From an uncultured Pelagibacteraceae bacterium (GTDB lineage: Bacteria > Pseudomonadota > Alphaproteobacteria > Pelagibacterales > Pelagibacteraceae), in NCBI GenBank assembly GCA_902574035.1, contig CACGMC010000001.1:186001-250000 (forward strand): a stretch of 64,000 bases of DNA, written 5' to 3'. Below, one piece after another: positions 1-29,195 of the stretch. Position numbers and translations under genes: made by a program. The notes beneath the pieces were generated by a model. That model ran no database searches. It saw only the letters and a list, made by a program, of their open reading frames with translations, and was not told the DNA's origin. Numbering within the stretch: position 1 is the stretch's first letter; each line of letters begins with the position of its first letter.

Positions 1-589
1 AAAATGGCATCGGAAATTCGTTTTTATCAGTCAATGGGGTTTTTATAAACCCAGGTGATACAACTGAAACTCTCACTCCAAATTTTTTAAAATCAAAATA
101 AATGCTCTCACTAAAATTAGTTAAGGCAGCTTTAGATGGTCCATATCCACTTGAATTTGGTAACCCTCTATAACTCGCAATAGATGAAACTATTGAAATA
201 TGTCCAGATTTCTTATCTTTAAAATATCTTTCAACAGATTTTACACAATCAATTACACCTATAAAATTTACATTTATAACATTCTTTATTTTGTCAGGAT
301 CGATATTTTGTTCGTCTTTCGGCTCATATGTACCGCTAGAAAATAAACATATATCTAATTCGCCAAAATTATTTAGAATATTTTTAAAAACTTCATTAAT
401 TTGATTTCTATTAGTAACATCGAGAGGAAAAGATACTATATTAGGATTTTTAGCTAATTCATCAAGAAGTTCTTTTCTTCTAGCTGACACTGCAACTTTC
501 CAACCCTCATTAGCAAACTTTTCAGCAACTGATTTTCCTATCCCGCTACTTGCACCAGTTATCCAAATTTTTTTCTGTTTTTCTGACAT
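1..589 (-). CDS. Short-chain dehydrogenase/reductase (partial, C-terminus outside window)
   Basis: NAD(P)-dependent oxidoreductase with a Rossmann fold, reading leftward and cut by the window edge after about 196 codons. The start is the ATG at 587-589. Visible SDR marks are the N-terminal TGASSGIG nucleotide-binding motif (residues about 10-17), a VSS segment carrying the catalytic Ser and the YGPSK catalytic Tyr/Lys motif, followed by the usual VVSPGFIKT segment. Substrate cannot be read from sequence. It is divergent from the TspO gene 20 bp away. SDR plus TspO plus photolyase-family genes is a recurrent light-stress neighbourhood in bacteria, so a role there is an inference. Confidence 0.9.
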   Translation of the reverse strand, partial: MSEKQKKIWITGASSGIGKSVAEKFANEGWKVAVSARRKELLDELAKNPNIVSFPLDVTNRNQINEVFKNILNNFGELDICLFSSGTYEPKDEQNIDPDKIKNVINVNFIGVIDCVKSVERYFKDKKSGHISIVSSIASYRGLPNSSGYGPSKAALTNFSESIYFDFKKFGVRVSVVSPGFIKTPLTDKNEFPMPF

Positions 590-9604: not shown

Positions 9605-10213
9605 ATGAAATTAGTCAAAGATATAGAGAAATCATCGATAAATCAGAGCGGAGTCACTGATAAAGAAGCAGAAGACGCTTTCAAGACTATTCTGAAGTGG
9701 ATAGGCGAAAATCCGGATAGAGAAGGTCTAAAAGAAACACCAAAAAGGGTCGTTAAAGCATTTAAGGAATATTTTAGTGGATATCATCAAGATGCAAACA
9801 AAGTTCTAAATAAAACTTTTGGGGATGTTGATGGATATGATGACATGGTTTTAGAAAAAAATATTTCTTTTGAGAGTCATTGCGAGCATCATATGGCTCC
9901 GATTATAGGTGTAATTCATATTGCTTATATTCCAAATAAAAAAGTTGTTGGTTTAAGTAAATTAGCTAGAACCGTAGAAGTTTACGCTAAGAGATTACAA
10001 ACTCAAGAAAGACTAAATATGCAAATAGCTAAGACTTTAATGAGTGGATTAGAAGCCAAAGGTGTAGCCGTAACTATAGATGCTTCCCATCAGTGTATGA
10101 CTATGAGAGGTATTAAAAAAGAAAAAGCGATGACACTCACAAATTATTTTTTAGGAACATTCAAAGATGATCTTTCACTTCAAAATAGATATTTAAAGCA
10201 CATCGGAAAATAA
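9605..10213 (+). CDS. folE: GTP cyclohydrolase I
   Basis: Converts GTP to 7,8-dihydroneopterin triphosphate, first step of folate and 7-deazapurine pathways. At 202 residues it has the full family signature: zinc ligands Cys93, His96 and Cys164 lie in SHCEHHMAPIIG and SHQCMTMRG, with ARTVEVYAKRLQTQERL between them. The N-terminal AFKTILKWIGENPDREGLKETP block is typical. Its stop overlaps the start of the AcuI/YhdH-like gene (TAATG). A candidate p-aminobenzoate synthase for the same end product lies at 24894-25559. Confidence 0.96.
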   Translation: MKLVKDIEKSSINQSGVTDKEAEDAFKTILKWIGENPDREGLKETPKRVVKAFKEYFSGYHQDANKVLNKTFGDVDGYDDMVLEKNISFESHCEHHMAPIIGVIHIAYIPNKKVVGLSKLARTVEVYAKRLQTQERLNMQIAKTLMSGLEAKGVAVTIDASHQCMTMRGIKKEKAMTLTNYFLGTFKDDLSLQNRYLKHIGK

Positions 10214-20473: not shown

Positions 20474-20542
20474 TCCACAAGCAAATTTAAGTCAACTAAT
20501 AAGTGATACATATTTTTCTTAAATATGATTTAATGAAATTAA

Positions 20543-20713
20543 TTAAGAGGCAACTCTTAACTGGCCAATTAAGGAAAAACCGAGAGGTTCAAGCTTAAAG
20601 GGCAGAAAGGTCAACTGAGTAGCGCTAAAATGGTTGATCGGGTGGGTTCGGCGGTAGCGCCTACAACGACGAACCAAAACTACTAAATTTCTGGGCGAAA
20701 GCCTAGAAATTTA
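20543..20713 (+). ncRNA. Candidate structured RNA with three GNRA hairpins
   Basis: A G+C-rich patch in an AT-rich gap. Stems I can draw: 20543-20560, 7 bp with GCAA loop; 20578-20589, 4 bp with GAGA loop; 20609-20639, 7 bp (one G-U); 20645-20675, 6 bp enclosing a smaller hairpin; 20684-20713, 13 bp (one G-U) with GAAA loop. A TATGAT box at 20524-20529 could be its -10. It lacks the marks of RNase P RNA, SRP RNA, tmRNA or tRNA that I know. The strand is inferred from the box and from the GNRA loops, and is not certain. The last stem overlaps the stop of the next gene by 3 bases. Confidence 0.55.
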
Positions 20714-21574: not shown

Positions 21575-22765
21575 ATGAAAAAGTCTATAAACACATTTTT
21601 AAAACATCCCACTAAAGATAATGATAATAGATCTGCAAATCCACCTGTAACACGAGCTTCAACAATACTTTTTAATACAATGCAAGAGATGATTTCTCAT
21701 GAAAAAAAAATTAAATTTCACAAAAATATTACCCACTATTCTTATGGTCGATACGGCAGTACAACAACAATTGAATTAGAAAACATTATAAAAAAACTTG
21801 AGGCAGCTTATCACGTTTTTTTAACAGGCACGGGATTTGGAGGAATATCCTTAGCTTTAATGAGTTTGTGTAGGCCAGGAGATGAAATAATTGTTTCAGA
21901 CAATGTATACGGGCCGACGAAGGAAATTACAGAAGATCTCTTAAAACAATTTAACATTATCGCGAAGTTTTATAACCCAGAGAAATTTGAGGATTTACGA
22001 AATAAAATTTCAAAAAAAACTAAAATGATATTTGTAGAAAATCCAGGAAGTAATACTTTTGAATTCCAAGATTTAACTAAAATTGTCAGAATTGCAAAAA
22101 AGAAAAATATTGTTACTATGCTTGATAATACTTGGGGTACACCGCTATATTTAAAACCACTTAAAATTGGATTCGATATATCATTTTCATCCGCAACAAA
22201 ATATTTTTCCGGTCACTCAGATGCAATGGGTGGAACTTTAGCGGTAAATAAAAAAGTTTATAAAAAAATTATGTTTTTTTATAAATTATCTGGATATAGA
22301 ATGTCAGCTGACGAAGCTTATTTAATTATAAGAGGTCTTAGAACTTTAGATGTAAGGCTTAAACAACATTATGAAAATGCTATAAAAGTTATAGATTATT
22401 TAAAAAAACATAGAAAAGTAAAAGAGATTTTATTTCCTTACAAACCAAAATCTAAAAATTACAAACTTTGGAAAAAATATTATTCTGGTGCAACAAGCCT
22501 GTTTTCTATAGTTATTAAAAGTAGAAAAAAATCTTCAGTAATAAAATTTGTAAATTCACTTGAATTATTTGGAATTGGTTATAGTTGGGGCGGATTTGAA
22601 AGTTTGGCGATTTTACAAGATTTAAAAAAAAAAACTGAATACATAAAAGGGCGACATTTCTATCGTTTTGGTAAAGACGAACATATTGTACGATTGCATA
22701 TTGGTTTAGAAGAACCAAAGGAATTAATTGCTGATCTTAATAAAGCTCTAAAATTTGTAAAATAA
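21575..22765 (+). CDS. metC: Cystathionine beta-lyase-like PLP enzyme (MetC type)
   Basis: Cys/Met metabolism PLP-dependent enzyme, 396 residues. Blocks: HYSYGRYGSTTTIELE (about residues 50-65), LTGTGFGGISLALMSLCRPGDEI, MLDNTWGTPLYLKP, and the PLP-lysine segment SFSSATKYFSGHSDAMGG. The form TWGTPLY and the overall pattern favour cystathionine beta-lyase over gamma-synthase, but side activities are common. The next gene, an MFS carrier, starts directly after its stop. Confidence 0.88.
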   Translation: MKKSINTFLKHPTKDNDNRSANPPVTRASTILFNTMQEMISHEKKIKFHKNITHYSYGRYGSTTTIELENIIKKLEAAYHVFLTGTGFGGISLALMSLCRPGDEIIVSDNVYGPTKEITEDLLKQFNIIAKFYNPEKFEDLRNKISKKTKMIFVENPGSNTFEFQDLTKIVRIAKKKNIVTMLDNTWGTPLYLKPLKIGFDISFSSATKYFSGHSDAMGGTLAVNKKVYKKIMFFYKLSGYRMSADEAYLIIRGLRTLDVRLKQHYENAIKVIDYLKKHRKVKEILFPYKPKSKNYKLWKKYYSGATSLFSIVIKSRKKSSVIKFVNSLELFGIGYSWGGFESLAILQDLKKKTEYIKGRHFYRFGKDEHIVRLHIGLEEPKELIADLNKALKFVK

Positions 22766-23992
22766 ATGTCAGAAAAATTTATTAATAACAGATTAACTCT
22801 AATCGTTCTAATCTCAGCTTGCGTAGTGATAATGATTTCTATGGGTCTCAGACAGACCTTTGGACTTTTCTTTCAAGCTTTTGAGGAAGGATTAGGATGT
22901 ACGCGAACAGAATTTGGCCTAGCAATTGGTATTCAAATGATTTTTTGGGGAATGTTCTCTCCTTTGTTCGGGTTAGTTGCAGATAGATTTGGAGGAAATA
23001 AAGCAGTTTTTATTGGTTTTCTTATTTTTGGTGCTGGTATTTTTATGCTTTATTCAGGACCTAATACAGGAATTTATTTTCAAATAAGTTTAGGAGTTTT
23101 AATTGGTATAGCCCTTGGAGCTACAGCAATTAGTGTTCCAGTTTCAGAAGTAAGCAAACATTTTCCAAATGAGAAAAGAACAATCGCATCAGGAATGGTA
23201 ACTGCTGCGGCGTCCGTTGGTTATTTTATTGCACCTCTTTTTACAAAGTATTCTCTTGGTGAGTATGGTTGGGAAGAAACTCTTAGGTTTTTTCTTTACT
23301 TCATTTTATTAGGTTCAATAGTTTCAATTTTTATCTTCGCTCCACAAAAACTAATCGAGCAAAGAAAAATAATTGTAAAAGATCAAACTTTTTTAGAAGC
23401 ATTTAGAGAAGCTTTCTCTCATAAAGGCTATATATTGCTTAATGCTGGTTTTTTTGTTTGTGGCTTTCAAATAACACTAATTGCAACACATATACCTGGA
23501 TATATGCAAGAAAGAGGAATGGGCGGATGGTCAGCTACTATAATTTTAGCACTCATTGGCTTATTTAACATTATTGGTACTCTTGGAATGGGTTATCTTG
23601 GCACAAAATATAGAAAAAAAAATCTTCTTTGTCTTCTTTACGCTCTTAGAGCTTTATCAATTGCAATTTTTATTATTTCGCCACCATCTTTGATGATGTC
23701 AATCGTATTTGGTATTAGCTTTGGTTTATTGTGGTTATCTACAGTGCCACCTACAAATGGTATAGTAGCACAAATATTTGGCACCAAATATCTCAGCTCT
23801 TTATTCGGAATTGTTTTTTTAAGTCACCAAGTAGGAGCGTTTATAGGAGCTTATTTAGGAGGTTATTTTTACGATGTATTTGGTTCCTATGATTATGCTT
23901 TTTATATCGCAATAGCTCTTTCAATATTTGCAACTATTGTTCATTACCCAATTGATGAAAGACCTCTTTTAAAAAATAGTCAATCTGTTTAA
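22766..23992 (+). CDS. MFS transporter (monocarboxylate/oxalate-formate type)
   Basis: A 408-residue carrier with twelve hydrophobic segments. The start GLRQTFGLFFQAFEEGLGCTRTEFGLAIG and the loop GLVADRFGGNKAV (an A-type MFS motif) match the OxlT/monocarboxylate-porter branch. The C-terminal half has GTKYLSSLFGIVFLSHQVGAFIGAYLGG. The substrate is probably an organic anion. ATG follows the metC-like stop with no spacing, so the two are one operon. It overlaps the convergent TauE gene by 4 bases. Confidence 0.85.
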   Translation: MSEKFINNRLTLIVLISACVVIMISMGLRQTFGLFFQAFEEGLGCTRTEFGLAIGIQMIFWGMFSPLFGLVADRFGGNKAVFIGFLIFGAGIFMLYSGPNTGIYFQISLGVLIGIALGATAISVPVSEVSKHFPNEKRTIASGMVTAAASVGYFIAPLFTKYSLGEYGWEETLRFFLYFILLGSIVSIFIFAPQKLIEQRKIIVKDQTFLEAFREAFSHKGYILLNAGFFVCGFQITLIATHIPGYMQERGMGGWSATIILALIGLFNIIGTLGMGYLGTKYRKKNLLCLLYALRALSIAIFIISPPSLMMSIVFGISFGLLWLSTVPPTNGIVAQIFGTKYLSSLFGIVFLSHQVGAFIGAYLGGYFYDVFGSYDYAFYIAIALSIFATIVHYPIDERPLLKNSQSV

Positions 23993-24893: not shown

Positions 24894-25559
24894 ATGTTTT
24901 CAATAGAATTAAACAAAAAGCTAGACCAATACCACCTACTTAACCACCCATTTTATAAATCTTGGAATGAGGGAAAACTAACAAGAGAAATTATAAAAGA
25001 TTACGCTGAACAATATTACCAGCATGTAAAAGCGTTTCCTAGATATATCAGCGCTACTCACTCAATTTGTGAGGATATTGAAAAGAGAAAAATTCTTTTA
25101 GAAAATTTACAAGATGAAGAAAACCCAAATGGTGATCATCCAAAGCTTTGGAAAAACTTCGCTTTAGCTATGGGAGCTGATGTAGATAAAATTGAAAATG
25201 TTAAGAGAGAATGGTTTACGAATGATATGATCGAAAATTTTTTTCATCAAGCTAGAAAATCATATGCTGAGGGATTAGCATCATTATACACTTATGAAAG
25301 ACAGATTCCTGAAATTGCTGAAACAAAAATTAGGGGCTTAAAAAATTTTTATGGAGTCACTTCTAAAGAAGGTCTTGAATTTTTTGAGGCTCATAAAGCT
25401 GCAGATGTAATTCATAGAAAAGAATGTGAGAAACTTTTAGATGCTTTAACCGAAGAAGAAAAAACTAAAGCGGAAAAAGCTTCTATGCTTACAGCAAGGT
25501 ATCTTTGGAATTTCCTAAGCGGGATGTCTACGAAACACAAAATACAAGCAGCAGCATAA
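24894..25559 (+). CDS. CADD-type heme-oxygenase-like di-metal protein, candidate p-aminobenzoate synthase
   Basis: A 221-residue protein of the PqqC/TenA/CADD fold. Metal-ligand positions of Chlamydia CADD (Glu81, His88, Glu142, His174, Asp178, His181) map here to Glu75, His82, Glu135, His167, Asp171 and His174 with nearly identical spacing. The residues CADD is reported to consume and use, Tyr27 and Lys152, map to Tyr21 (HPFYKSW) and Lys145 (AETKIRGL). In Chlamydia and Nitrosomonas this protein makes p-aminobenzoate from its own tyrosine. The same role for folate here is an inference. A strong AAGGAG site precedes the ATG. The next gene starts 7 bases on. Confidence 0.88.
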   Translation: MFSIELNKKLDQYHLLNHPFYKSWNEGKLTREIIKDYAEQYYQHVKAFPRYISATHSICEDIEKRKILLENLQDEENPNGDHPKLWKNFALAMGADVDKIENVKREWFTNDMIENFFHQARKSYAEGLASLYTYERQIPEIAETKIRGLKNFYGVTSKEGLEFFEAHKAADVIHRKECEKLLDALTEEEKTKAEKASMLTARYLWNFLSGMSTKHKIQAAA

Positions 25560-25566
25560 TTTTTTA

Positions 25567-25959
25567 ATGACAGACCAAATGAAAAATGATGGTCATGTCT
25601 GGGATAATAAGAAACCTACAGCTCAAATGTTAGGAAGGTGGCAACCGTGGCACGCCGGTCATCAAAAACTATTCGAAGAGATTTTAAAAAAAACTGGCCA
25701 AGTTCTTATCATGGTACGAGATGTTCAGGGGGTAGATGACAATCCTTTTAATTTTGAAACAGTTCAAAAAAATATTCTTGGAGCTTTAAAAGATTACCAA
25801 AATAGAATTAAAATTATTCTTGTTCCTAATATAACTAATATTTGTTACGGTAGAGGCGTAGGGTACAAAATTGAAGAAATAGTTCTCGATGAAAAGACAC
25901 AGCAAATTTCAGCGACTAAAATTAGGGCTCAAATGAGAAAGGATGGTAAGCTGAAATAA
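25567..25959 (+). CDS. Small HxGH nucleotidyltransferase next to the apr genes
   Basis: A 130-residue cytidylyl/adenylyltransferase-fold protein. LGRWQPWHAGHQKLFEEIL (about residues 22-40) is the HxGH nucleotide site, and the end carries ISATKIRAQM, equivalent to the ISSTxIR motif. PNITNICYGRGVGYKIEEI is distinctive. Family members adenylate or cytidylate phosphates. Its place between the CADD gene and aprM-aprB-aprA makes an APS/ATP (ATP-sulfurylase-like) reaction possible, but no test is available. A role with the CADD gene cannot be excluded. Confidence 0.75.
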   Translation: MTDQMKNDGHVWDNKKPTAQMLGRWQPWHAGHQKLFEEILKKTGQVLIMVRDVQGVDDNPFNFETVQKNILGALKDYQNRIKIILVPNITNICYGRGVGYKIEEIVLDEKTQQISATKIRAQMRKDGKLK

Positions 25960-26010: not shown

Positions 26011-26802
26011 ATGTTTTCAATTAATCCATTTGCAGAACTAACATTAATTGTTCCAGCTTTTTTTTTACAATTATTTGTAGTAGCTATGGTGTTATTAATT
26101 ATCATTGGAACAGGTCTAGATATGCTACACAAAAAAAATGTAGTTTATTTTTTTAGAAATGCTTCAAAAGCGAAAAAATCTGCAAAAAAAGAATTAAGTG
26201 CTGGAAAAAAAACAGCTGTAATTTTAAAAACAGTAGCCAGCGATATTGCAACAACTTCTGAGCTTGGATTTGGGAAGAGAAGATTAGCACACGTATTAGG
26301 AATGTACGGTACTATTCTTTTTTGGATAGCATCTGTGGTTTTAATATTTAAATACTCTGATGGCGTTACTGCACCAGCTTATATTCCAATTATTTGGCAC
26401 GTAGGAGCAATCATGACGTGCGTAGGTGGATATTGGTTCTGGTTTTTTTTAAGAGTAGATGTTTCTGCAGAAGCACACCCTTGGTATAGGATTATTACTG
26501 CTGATTTATTTGTTTTAGCTTTGTTAGCCTGCGCTACTTTTGGATTAGCTTGGTCCTTTTCACAATCAATAGGAATGACAGGATTAAGTTATTTATTTTT
26601 AGTTTTATTTATTTTCGCTAACCTTACATTATTCGGAGGAGTTTATTGGTCTAAGTTTGCACACATGTTTTATAAACCTGGCGCTGCCATACAAAAAAAT
26701 TTGGCAGAAGCTGATGGGTCTAGAGACAATTTGCCCCCTCCAGCGGATGCACCAGAGCAATTTGGCCTTGGTATTAAAAGAGAACAACCAAAACATTATT
26801 AA
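26011..26802 (+). CDS. aprM: Adenylylsulfate reductase membrane anchor AprM
   Basis: A 263-residue membrane protein with about six helices, directly before aprB and aprA. It has histidines suited to heme or quinone contact (LAHVLGMYG, IIWHVGAIMTC, KFAHMFYKPGAAIQ) and a soluble Pro-rich C-terminus (DNLPPPADAPEQFGLG). AprM-type anchors link AprBA to the quinone pool in sulfur oxidisers. Assignment rests on operon position and overall pattern. Confidence 0.82.
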   Translation: MFSINPFAELTLIVPAFFLQLFVVAMVLLIIIGTGLDMLHKKNVVYFFRNASKAKKSAKKELSAGKKTAVILKTVASDIATTSELGFGKRRLAHVLGMYGTILFWIASVVLIFKYSDGVTAPAYIPIIWHVGAIMTCVGGYWFWFFLRVDVSAEAHPWYRIITADLFVLALLACATFGLAWSFSQSIGMTGLSYLFLVLFIFANLTLFGGVYWSKFAHMFYKPGAAIQKNLAEADGSRDNLPPPADAPEQFGLGIKREQPKHY

Positions 26803-26865
26803 CACTATGATTAATAAAACTAGTATATTATCAGGAGCTAATATAGTAATTAAGAGGAATTAAAT

Positions 26866-27336
26866 ATGTCTACTTTTGTATATATGACTAGATGTGATGG
26901 ATGCGGACATTGCGTAGATATTTGTCCATCAGACATTATGCATATTGATGAAACTATTAGACGAGCTAAAAATATTGAACCTAATTTTTGTTGGGAGTGC
27001 TATTCATGCGTAAAAGCATGTCCCAATCACGCTATAGATGTCAGAGGCTACGCAGATTTTGCACCGATGGGCCATAGCGTTAGAGTGAGAAGAGAGGAAG
27101 AAAAAGGAACAATATCTTGGAAAATAAAATTCAGAAATGGCACAGAAAAAGATTTTGTATCTCCTATTACAACTAAACCTTGGGGAAAATTTATTCCTAA
27201 GTTAGCCGAGGGAGATAAACCTCGTCAAGGAGAAATGAACTCTCAAGTTCTTTACTCTGAGCCAGAGGGGTTAGATACTAAAAAGGACTTACCTACCATA
27301 AGCAAAGACTCTTTTAAAAAGGGAGTTTATTATTAA
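26866..27336 (+). CDS. aprB: Adenylylsulfate reductase beta subunit (2x 4Fe-4S)
   Basis: A 156-residue electron-transfer subunit. Two ferredoxin-type cluster motifs, CDGCGHCVDICP (residues 9-20) and CWECYSCVKACP (43-54), bind two 4Fe-4S clusters. The C-terminal part (residues 60-156) wraps the alpha subunit in known AprBA structures. An AAGAGGAAT ribosome-binding site precedes ATG 26866. The stop overlaps the start of aprA (TAATG). The complex interconverts APS and sulfite plus AMP. In an aerobic SAR11 cell, sulfite oxidation is expected. Confidence 0.95.
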   Translation: MSTFVYMTRCDGCGHCVDICPSDIMHIDETIRRAKNIEPNFCWECYSCVKACPNHAIDVRGYADFAPMGHSVRVRREEEKGTISWKIKFRNGTEKDFVSPITTKPWGKFIPKLAEGDKPRQGEMNSQVLYSEPEGLDTKKDLPTISKDSFKKGVYY

Positions 27337-29195
27337 TGTCAAAAAGCAAAACTGTTCACGAAAATTGCGATATTCTTGTAGTAGGCGGAGGTATGGCCGG
27401 AACTGGCGCAACATTTGAAGCTAGACACTGGGGAAGAGATCTTAAAATTATCTGTGTAGAAAAAGCTAATATAGATCGAAGCGGTGCAGTCGCACAAGGT
27501 TTGTACGCTATCAATTGTTATATGGGAATGAGATGGAATGAAAATCAACCTGAAGATCATGTAAGGTACGCAAGGAACGATCTTATGGGTCTTGTAAGAG
27601 AGGACTTAGGCTATGATATGGCTCGTCACGTTGACTCCACAGTGCATATGTTTGATGAGTGGGGCCTTCCTATGATGAAAGATAAAAAAACCGGCAGATA
27701 TCAAAGAGAAGGTAAGTGGCAGATAATGATACACGGAGAAAGTTACAAACCTATTGTCGCTGAAGCAGCAAAAAAATCTGCAGATAAAATATATAATAGG
27801 ATAATGGTTACTCATTTATTAATGGATGAGAATAATACAAATCGAGTGGGTGGTGCAGTTGGATTTAATATGAGAACTGGTGATTATCATGTGTTCAAAG
27901 CAAAGACTGTTATAGTCGCAGCAGGAGGAGCTTCACATATTTTTAAACCTCGTGCGGTTGGAGAAGGCATGGGTAGAACATGGTATGCTCCGTGGAGCAA
28001 TGGATCTGCATACGCCTTACCTATCGCGGCAGGCGCTAAGATGACACAAATGGAAAATAGAATCGTGCTATGTAGGTTTAAAGATGGATATGGTCCAGTC
28101 GGTGCTTATTTTTTACATTTAAAAACTTACACACAAAATGCAAATGGCGAAAACTATGAAAAGAAATGGTATGATAAGACAAAAGAATTAGTGGGAGAAT
28201 ATATTGATCATCATCCGACACCAACTTGTTTAAGAAATCATGCATTTATTCAGGAAGTAATGGCTGGAGGTGGACCAATTCATATGGTTACAAAAGAAGC
28301 TTTTCAAGATCCTCATTTAGAAACAGTTGGATGGGAAAATTTTTTAGGTATGACCGTAGGCCAGGCAGTTGTATGGGCCTCACAAAATATCGATCCAAAA
28401 TATACTAATCCTGAACTAACAACATCAGAGCCTTATGTAATGGGCTCTCATGCTACTTGCTCTGGAGCTTGGGTTAGTGGACCAGAGGATATAGCTCCAC
28501 CTGAATATTTTTGGGGTTATAACAGAATGACGACAGTTGAAGGCTTGTTTGGAGCAGGTGATACTGTTGGAGGAAGTGCTCACAAGTTTTCATCTGGCTC
28601 TTTTACTGAAGGAAGATTGGCAGCCAAAGCAGCGGTTAAATATATTGAAGATAAAAAAGCCGAAGAAATAAACGTGAGCGATAAGCAATGTAATAATTTG
28701 AAAGATATTATTTTTAAACCTTTAGATAATTATACAATTGGTCGAAATGAGATTACAGGCGGAACAGTCTCACCGAGTTACATTTCTCCTATTCAAGGAT
28801 TGCAAAGACTTCAAAAAATAATGGATGAGTATGTTGGTGGAATAACTGCAAATTATATGACTAATGATAATTTATTAAAAAAAGGTTTAGAATTATTAGA
28901 CTGGCTTCAAGAGGATCTAGAACATGTTGGAGCAGAAGATTATCACCAACTAATGAGAGCTTGGGAATTAAAACATAGAACTTTAACATCACAATGTGTA
29001 ACTGAACACACTTTATTTAGAGAGGAAACACGTTGGCCAGGTTATTATTACAGAGGTGACAAACTAAAACTTGATGACGAAAATTGGCATTGTTTAACTG
29101 TTTCTAGACGAGATCCTAAAACTGGCAAATTTACATTAGAAAAGATGCCTGTTTATCACATAGTCGGTGACGAAAAGAAAAAGAAAGCCTCTTAA
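27336..29195 (+). CDS. aprA: Adenylylsulfate reductase alpha subunit (FAD)
   Basis: A 619-residue flavoprotein of the fumarate-reductase superfamily. The FAD-binding motif DILVVGGGMAGTGA is at residues 12-25, with RSGAVAQGLYAINCYMG, KTVIVAAGGASHIFKPRAVGEGMGR and GLFGAGDTVGGSAHKFSSGSFTEGRLAAKAA as diagnostic AprA blocks. It catalyses sulfite + AMP to APS with electrons leaving through AprB and AprM. Sulfite would come from Xsc and SuyAB encoded nearby. The following small gene starts 9 bases downstream. Confidence 0.96.
   Translation: MSKSKTVHENCDILVVGGGMAGTGATFEARHWGRDLKIICVEKANIDRSGAVAQGLYAINCYMGMRWNENQPEDHVRYARNDLMGLVREDLGYDMARHVDSTVHMFDEWGLPMMKDKKTGRYQREGKWQIMIHGESYKPIVAEAAKKSADKIYNRIMVTHLLMDENNTNRVGGAVGFNMRTGDYHVFKAKTVIVAAGGASHIFKPRAVGEGMGRTWYAPWSNGSAYALPIAAGAKMTQMENRIVLCRFKDGYGPVGAYFLHLKTYTQNANGENYEKKWYDKTKELVGEYIDHHPTPTCLRNHAFIQEVMAGGGPIHMVTKEAFQDPHLETVGWENFLGMTVGQAVVWASQNIDPKYTNPELTTSEPYVMGSHATCSGAWVSGPEDIAPPEYFWGYNRMTTVEGLFGAGDTVGGSAHKFSSGSFTEGRLAAKAAVKYIEDKKAEEINVSDKQCNNLKDIIFKPLDNYTIGRNEITGGTVSPSYISPIQGLQRLQKIMDEYVGGITANYMTNDNLLKKGLELLDWLQEDLEHVGAEDYHQLMRAWELKHRTLTSQCVTEHTLFREETRWPGYYYRGDKLKLDDENWHCLTVSRRDPKTGKFTLEKMPVYHIVGDEKKKKAS

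Follow-up and report, generated by a model that had tools for sequence, protein, structure and literature searches.

Locus and gene product

The window analysed here is a 64,000-nucleotide stretch of contig CACGMC010000001.1 (assembly GCA_902574035.1), from an uncultured Pelagibacteraceae bacterium of SAR11. The subject is its gene at 24894-25559, a candidate for a CADD-type synthase of p-aminobenzoate (pABA), the aromatic part of folate. The gene lies in one run with the sulfur genes aprM-aprB-aprA, and metC-like and MFS transporter genes are found upstream of it (Table 1).

The preliminary description, which was made from the letters alone, had named the product a CADD-type protein, and the searches agree. 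It matched TIGR04305 ('CADD family putative folate metabolism protein') over residues 3-212 with 299.7 bits (cut-off 200, E=1e-89), the sole NCBIfam model that it exceeded. Scores for related equivalog models were far under their cut-offs, namely PqqC (TIGR02111, 50 bits vs 240), TenA (TIGR04306, 19.1 vs 130) and BesC (NF042919, 19.9 vs 500). Pfam placed the protein in the broad families TENA_THI-4 and Haem_oxygenas_2. The best sequence matches in PDB were the CT610/CADD entries 1rcw and 8va9, together with 9pj4, an entry deposited under the name 4-aminobenzoate synthase. With phmmer, Chlamydia CT610 (1rcw) was matched at E=1.2e-48 over query residues 6-210.

An AlphaFold2 (AF2) model built from 20 sequences had a predicted local distance difference test (pLDDT) score of 92.3 and supersedes a model from a narrower alignment (pLDDT 80.2). 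It superposed on 1rcw at 1.3 Å over 213 residues (Z 31.6, template modelling (TM) score 0.92, 39% identity), with model residues 1..213 falling on 7..220 of 1rcw. The runner-up in the structure search was HrmI (Z 25.8). In this predicted model the fold is heme-oxygenase-like and close to that of 1rcw. The ratio of nonsynonymous to synonymous substitution rates (dN/dS) was 0.012-0.019 in 15 comparisons with relatives, a rough estimate because dS was >1. From these alignments the gene looks to be under strong purifying selection.

Table 1. Positions in the window of the candidate pABA synthase gene, its key codons and its neighbours.
Feature	Position	Strand	Basis or remark
Candidate CADD-type p-aminobenzoate synthase gene	24894..25559	+	221 aa, ATG start; TIGR04305, PDB matches, AF2 model
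Tyr21 codon, predicted sacrificial tyrosine (CADD Tyr27, NePabS Tyr25)	24954..24956	+	alignment, codon check, invariant
Tyr37 codon (CADD Tyr43 by offset; NePabS Tyr41)	25002..25004	+	alignment, codon check
Glu75 codon, predicted metal ligand	25116..25118	+	codon check
His82 codon, predicted metal ligand	starts 25137	+	
Tyr134 codon, metal-selecting position (CADD Tyr141, NePabS Phe148)	25293..25295	+	alignment, codon check
Glu135 codon, predicted metal ligand	starts 25296	+	
Lys145 codon, predicted amino-group donor (CADD Lys152, NePabS Lys159)	25326..25328	+	alignment, codon check
Phe163 codon, second metal-selecting position (CADD Tyr170, NePabS Phe177)	25380..25382	+	alignment, codon check
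His167 codon, predicted metal ligand	starts 25392	+	
Asp171 codon, predicted metal ligand	starts 25404	+	
His174 codon, predicted metal ligand	starts 25413	+	
folE, GTP cyclohydrolase I (pterin branch)	9605..10213	+	TIGR00063 212.2 bits, cut-off 181.6
metC-like gene	21575-22765	+	cystathionine beta-lyase model 339 bits, cut-off 366; upstream slot border
MFS transporter gene	22766-23992	+	upstream slot border with metC (together 21575..23992)
Small nucleotidyltransferase-like gene (NTf)	25567..25959	+	7 bp downstream of CADD
aprM-like membrane gene, aprB, aprA	26011..29195	+	downstream slot border; aprB 187.7, aprA 995.2 bits, over cut-off

Conserved residues and metal selection

The residues of CADD had been placed on this protein at a near-constant offset. 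This holds: it is 6 as far as a single gap near residue 120, and 7 beyond that gap. Tyr21 and Lys145 fall on CADD Tyr27 and Lys152 in the sequence and structure alignments, as had been claimed, and the phmmer alignment to 1rcw bears out the pairing of Tyr134 with CADD Tyr141. All six metal ligands that had been claimed are in place (E75, H82, E135, H167, D171 and H174), at what we take to be the CADD ligand positions (three histidines and three carboxylates).

Thirteen positions were examined: Y21, Y37, Y41, E75, H82, W86, Y134, E135, K145, F163, H167, D171 and H174. All 13 were identical in 39 of 39 full-length CADDs of the family; the fortieth (G033) is a fragment and was left outside the comparison. 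They were also identical in 143 of 143 locus rows that matched the query at E 1e-25 or better. These rows are redundant and take in 80 loci of named genomes and seven alphaproteobacterial CADDs from outside the family (41-57% identity). The six dimetal ligands and the sacrificial Tyr and Lys are present and invariant in the CADDs compared, which for Tyr21 and Lys145 speaks to their presence. Also invariant are Y37, Y41 and W86, the equivalents of Tyr41, Tyr45 and Trp99 of NePabS (NE1434) from Nitrosomonas europaea, and NePabS Tyr41 is given as essential in the available part of PMC11965152.

Two positions are linked to metal selection. According to the same part of PMC11965152, CADD has Tyr at both (Tyr141 and Tyr170) and prefers Mn/Fe, NePabS has Phe148 and Phe177 and prefers Fe/Fe, and the NePabS F148Y mutant, a Tyr/Phe pair, has similar activity with Fe/Fe and Mn/Fe. 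The SAR11 protein has a third pair, Tyr134 and Phe163, and so belongs to neither the Tyr/Tyr (Mn/Fe-type) nor the Phe/Phe (Fe/Fe-type) subtype; all alphaproteobacterial CADDs compared are Tyr/Phe. Tyr/Tyr is not needed for family membership, since NePabS is Phe/Phe. Phe163, where CADD has Tyr170, was absent from the preliminary description. By analogy with NePabS F148Y, the SAR11 enzyme may work with either metal pair.

Folate genes of the genome

The folE gene that had been reported in the window was found above its equivalog cut-off. The genome (1.04 Mb, 92.5% complete) has folE, folP and folK. A genome search for pabA, pabB and pabC, which had been proposed as a check, found a single Chorismate_bind protein (485 aa, motif PIAGT) and no full PabABC route. 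This protein is TrpE, because TrpG adjoins it, and since it is the one chorismate-binding enzyme, pabABC appears to be absent. The single match to the PabC model (101 bits, cut-off 177) is a 315-residue frame, which we read as having the size of a branched-chain aminotransferase. The same count of one Chorismate_bind-type protein was obtained for each of four single-contig genomes with CADD (G005, G009, G022 and G040), which are 99-100% complete. In Pelagibacter ubique, trpE sits in a trpE-trpG-trpD-trpC operon, and SAR11 pab genes are not mentioned in the available parts of that paper (PMC2395257).

CADD and PabABC in the family

Sixty genomes of the family were compared. CADD was found in 40 (39 of them over the cut-off), a PabB-like protein in 10 and neither in 10, with no co-occurrence. 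The pabB model matched one protein of TrpE size in 35 of the CADD genomes (frames of 467-498 residues); the other five, which are incomplete, gave no match. A PabB-like gene is thus present in 0/40 genomes with CADD vs 10/20 without it (Fisher p 2.5e-6, relatedness ignored); G029, with 4% contamination, was counted here as PabB-positive. When the comparison is restricted to the 27 good genomes (completeness of 90% or more, contamination of 5% or less), 19 have CADD, six have PabABC and two have neither (G019 and G042). CADD and PabABC are mutually exclusive in this set.

The pabB-pabA-pabC operon was named from its gene order and the domains PF00425, PF00117 and PF01063. Its PabB-like proteins (for example L065 5093-6244) read PIAGT like TrpE. 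PabB of the E. coli type reads PIKGT, and there is a PabB clade without that lysine. Because the motif reads as in TrpE, the PabB call rests on the order pabB-pabA-pabC. Each of the g4 genomes has a separate protein of TrpE size with its own TrpG.

A shared chromosomal slot

CADD and PabABC were found to occupy the same place on the chromosome and are apparently interchangeable. Where apr is present in genera g1, g3, g6 and g8, the genes run metC-MFS-(NTf)-CADD-(NTf)-aprM-aprB-aprA, as they do in the window; genera g4, g10 and g14 have metC-MFS-(NTf)-pabB-pabA-pabC-aprM-aprB-aprA instead. NTf lies upstream of CADD or pabB in g3, g6, g8 and g10. Nine of the 10 PabABC genomes hold these genes in the CADD slot beside aprM. 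Seven also have metC-MFS on the far side and so show both borders (G003, G010, G014, G017, G026, G035 and G043), while G011 and G051 show the aprM side only because the contig ends. The contrast is sharpest between g10 and g3/g6/g8, where the same NTf gene stands on one side and aprM on the other, with pabBAC vs CADD between them. PabA, PabB and PabC are three catalytic enzymes that work from chorismate and glutamine and are not homologous to CADD. In the swap, a non-homologous pathway is exchanged exactly at the locus, which comes close to a natural complementation test.

The tenth PabABC genome, G029, has pabB-pabA-pabC followed by a second folP (L071 838-4147) on a 4.5-kb contig without an apr border. 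The contig may stem from contamination, or it may hold another kind of pab-fol operon.

Other genes of the slot were also explored. The membrane gene upstream of aprB, for which we assume the name aprM, has only weak QmoC/TcuB matches. NTf-like genes lie near or beside apr genes in the window and at L053 4471-5247, L072 6325-7106 and L065 7538-7936. In one g6 locus NTf is fused behind an APS (adenosine 5'-phosphosulfate)-kinase-like domain, and in g10 it follows a separate gene of this kind. In five of six g4 genomes and in g14, aprM is preceded by a HIT-type gene of 132 residues (domain checked in two). This gene, which follows pabC in g4, was considered as the counterpart of the window's nucleotidyltransferase and rejected, as it encodes a HIT-domain protein. 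The NTf-like, APS-kinase-like and HIT-domain genes are possibly enzymes for handling APS. A window-wide Rfam scan found no family at the CADD gene; the only family in the window at its gathering score was the IMES-2 RNA motif at 20536-20677 on the + strand (156.3 bits, gathering score 54.7).

CADD away from the apr genes

CADD is also found in other surroundings. In genera g5, g7, g9 and g12 it follows HU in 16/16 cases and stands directly before serC in 15/16; G053 has a serB-like gene in place of serC. The one HU-CADD-ser locus that was scanned has serC, serA and serB over their cut-offs. In the six longer loci that reach folE, this gene lies 4.4-5.5 kb upstream of CADD (folE checked in two). 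Serine feeds one-carbon units to folate, and the serC context therefore fits a role in folate synthesis. In the 12 genomes of these genera that were tested, aprB was not found, and nine of the 12 carry CADD. A tie of CADD to sulfur oxidation was rejected, because CADD remains where apr is absent.

A scan of named genomes gave at least 411 relatives, up to 98% identical. In the best 80 of these loci, 37 have apr beside CADD, 30 have CADD and then TauE without apr between them, and 13 have no visible downstream border. A scan of viral_contigs for CADD, limited to a pair of short peptide patterns, gave 47 matches to the patterns, none of them a relative.

In a wider survey, 10 of 385 alphaproteobacterial genomes had TIGR04305 over the cut-off, three from the family itself and seven from outside it. 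Four of the seven, each at least 99% complete, have no Chorismate_bind protein, and the other three have one each, for which anthranilate synthase is the best model. In G229 and G209 it is a Chorismate_bind-glutaminase fusion, which in G229 lies beside trpA; in G105 the locus ends within the frame, which also fits TrpE best. All three score below the cut-offs. In one alphaproteobacterial genome, G192, CADD stands in an unbroken series of folate genes at L252 4005-7237, where it is preceded by a folK-folP fusion and then a folA-like gene and is followed by a gene for a folate-type glutamate ligase (349.4 bits, cut-off 350).

Evolutionary history

An rpoB match was found in 48 genomes, and 40 of these were used for a tree. 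The test on it used 20 rows, with seven of the nine slot-type PabABC genomes and without G029. A single clade of PabABC holders was rejected (approximately unbiased test, p-AU 6e-6, on a quick tree), and two changes are needed. In the CADD tree the slot group stands together, with g5, g7, g9 and g12 outside it. Sequences of g8 and g6 fall within g3, which hints at exchange between genera; the p-AU of 0.0035 against a single clade of g3 CADDs is only a hint of transfer because this test was chosen after the tree was seen. Possibly the family has long had CADD, with pabBAC arriving in the slot on two occasions. It is also possible that pabBAC entered once and CADD was returned by exchange between genera. 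A tentative reading, which falls slightly short of being favoured, is that CADD and PabABC are alternative alleles of one locus, repeatedly exchanged from genus to genus by recombination via the flanking genes that they share, and that the alphaproteobacterial Tyr/Phe form can by nature use Fe/Fe or Mn/Fe.

Proposed function and mechanism

Very likely the product is a heme-oxygenase-like dimetal oxygenase of the CADD/PabS type, which takes the place of PabA, PabB and PabC and provides this SAR11 bacterium with the pABA for its folate. By analogy with the enzymes of Chlamydia and Nitrosomonas, pABA is very probably made by cutting a piece from the protein itself. The mechanism is modelled on that of CADD in the available part of PMC11965152. 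A reduced Fe/Fe or Mn/Fe site would react with O2, and the oxidising equivalent would reach Tyr21 by hopping via aromatic residues. Cleavage of this tyrosine between Calpha and Cbeta would leave glycine in the chain, and the pABA carboxylate would carry two O2-derived atoms. Lys145 would donate the amino group and end as aminoadipate. A protein molecule would yield at most one pABA.

For 221 residues and one pABA per protein, the computed cost is 313 N atoms of protein per pABA. Typical figures are about 50 µM folate, a 0.03 fL cell and about 1e5 proteins. A rough guess is several hundred to a thousand CADD copies per division, near 1% of protein molecules. Computed m/z values (2+) for peptides of this species are 791.4122 for modified LDQYHLLNHPFGK, 844.4332 for unmodified LDQYHLLNHPFYK and 656.859 for QIPEIAET-aminoadipate-IR.

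Several observations weigh against this function. The genome is 92.5% complete, so an unseen pabB is possible. None of the PabB-like proteins of the operon reaches an equivalog cut-off, and the PabB and TrpE models score nearly the same on them; PabB wins narrowly for L065 and L072, the two tie for L066, and PabC was called from a class-IV aminotransferase domain and gene order. A protein that is used only once, at the nitrogen price given above, is costly for a streamlined cell. In addition, 10 of the 60 family genomes have neither route. The contig stops at the slot in G042, G013 and G007, serC was not found in G030, G047, G054 and G055, and the slot is not visible in G049 and G046 because there is no aprB match. 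The remaining genome, G019, is 96% complete and has only TrpE, and CADD is cleanly missing from an intact HU-serC region. Its locus L247 961-5065 shows the HU-serC junction without CADD in an intact folE...HU-serC run, and folP and folK are present. From these genes G019 is a true exception, a predicted pABA auxotroph within SAR11.

Three other explanations were considered. CADD could make pABA catalytically from a small molecule, with Tyr21 and Lys145 as structural residues or first-turnover donors. A one-shot enzyme is indeed odd in a streamlined cell, and NePabS gave <0.1 pABA per monomer in vitro, for which a missing activator is suggested in the available part of PMC11965152; the sacrificial residues are, however, invariant in the CADDs compared, and this explanation is unlikely. 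A further one holds that the gene serves the apr sulfur operon as an accessory, in a redox or thiamin-type function, and is not a folate enzyme. The single gene run with aprM-aprB-aprA and the 37 of the best 80 named loci that keep this arrangement speak for it, but in 30 of the same 80 TauE comes after CADD and apr does not intervene (13 lack a downstream border), and aprB was not found in 9/9 CADD genomes of g5, g9 and g12 that were tested. The TenA and PqqC scores and the pabB-pabA-pabC operon in the same locus also count against an accessory role in sulfur oxidation, which is very improbable.

Just as hard to credit is a decaying or moonlighting remnant in a cell that takes up pABA or folate from sea water. 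G019, and possibly other genomes, do without either route, and both pABA and folic acid were present in the medium used for one strain of SAR11 (PMC6589437, available part). A remnant would not be expected to show a dN/dS of about 0.01-0.02 (a rough value) against 15 relatives, and 19 of 27 good genomes keep CADD, six of the other eight have PabABC, and the pterin branch is retained. Synthesis of pABA for folate by CADD, in place of PabABC, is the preferred explanation.

Comparison with known systems

The SAR11 protein is like CADD/CT610 of Chlamydia trachomatis (1rcw, 8va9) in fold, metal ligands and the equivalents of Tyr27 and Lys152. It differs in the metal-selecting pair described above and in its host, which belongs to a free-living clade, unlike Chlamydia. 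CT610 also lies among folate genes in the available part of PMC1971073, whereas the SAR11 gene lies by apr with folE about 15 kb off; the fol cluster of G192 is much like that Chlamydia cluster. NePabS has a free-living host and shares the Tyr25 and Lys159 equivalents with the SAR11 gene. It replaces pabABC in E. coli (PMC11965152, available part); it has Phe at both metal-selecting positions, and the SAR11 pair is that of its F148Y mutant. PabA-PabB-PabC has, by inference, the same product and holds the same slot in other SAR11 genera. PqqC and TenA/thiaminase II share the superfamily fold, with the SAR11 gene far below their cut-offs.

The protein thus belongs to a family and a reaction that are already known; its genomic context is unusual and well supported. 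The CADD family and its putative folate role were already named by NCBI, and two bacteria are known to carry out the reaction. The available parts of PMC11965152 name Wolbachia, Rickettsia, Chloroflexi, Sphingomonas and Nitrosomonas, with SAR11 not among them there. Among the papers listed, none was found that credits CADD with making pABA in SAR11 or describes the slot exchange; the core CADD papers were incompletely covered, and a mention there is possible.

Significance for SAR11

SAR11 oxidises one-carbon compounds via tetrahydrofolate as an energy pathway (PMC3160333, available part), and folate supply therefore matters for ocean carbon. If each pABA costs one protein of 221 residues, the price is surprising, and iron, chorismate, gene number or regulation must repay it. 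On the tentative reading of alternative alleles given above, a large part of the most abundant bacterial group in the ocean would build its folate at one protein per molecule.
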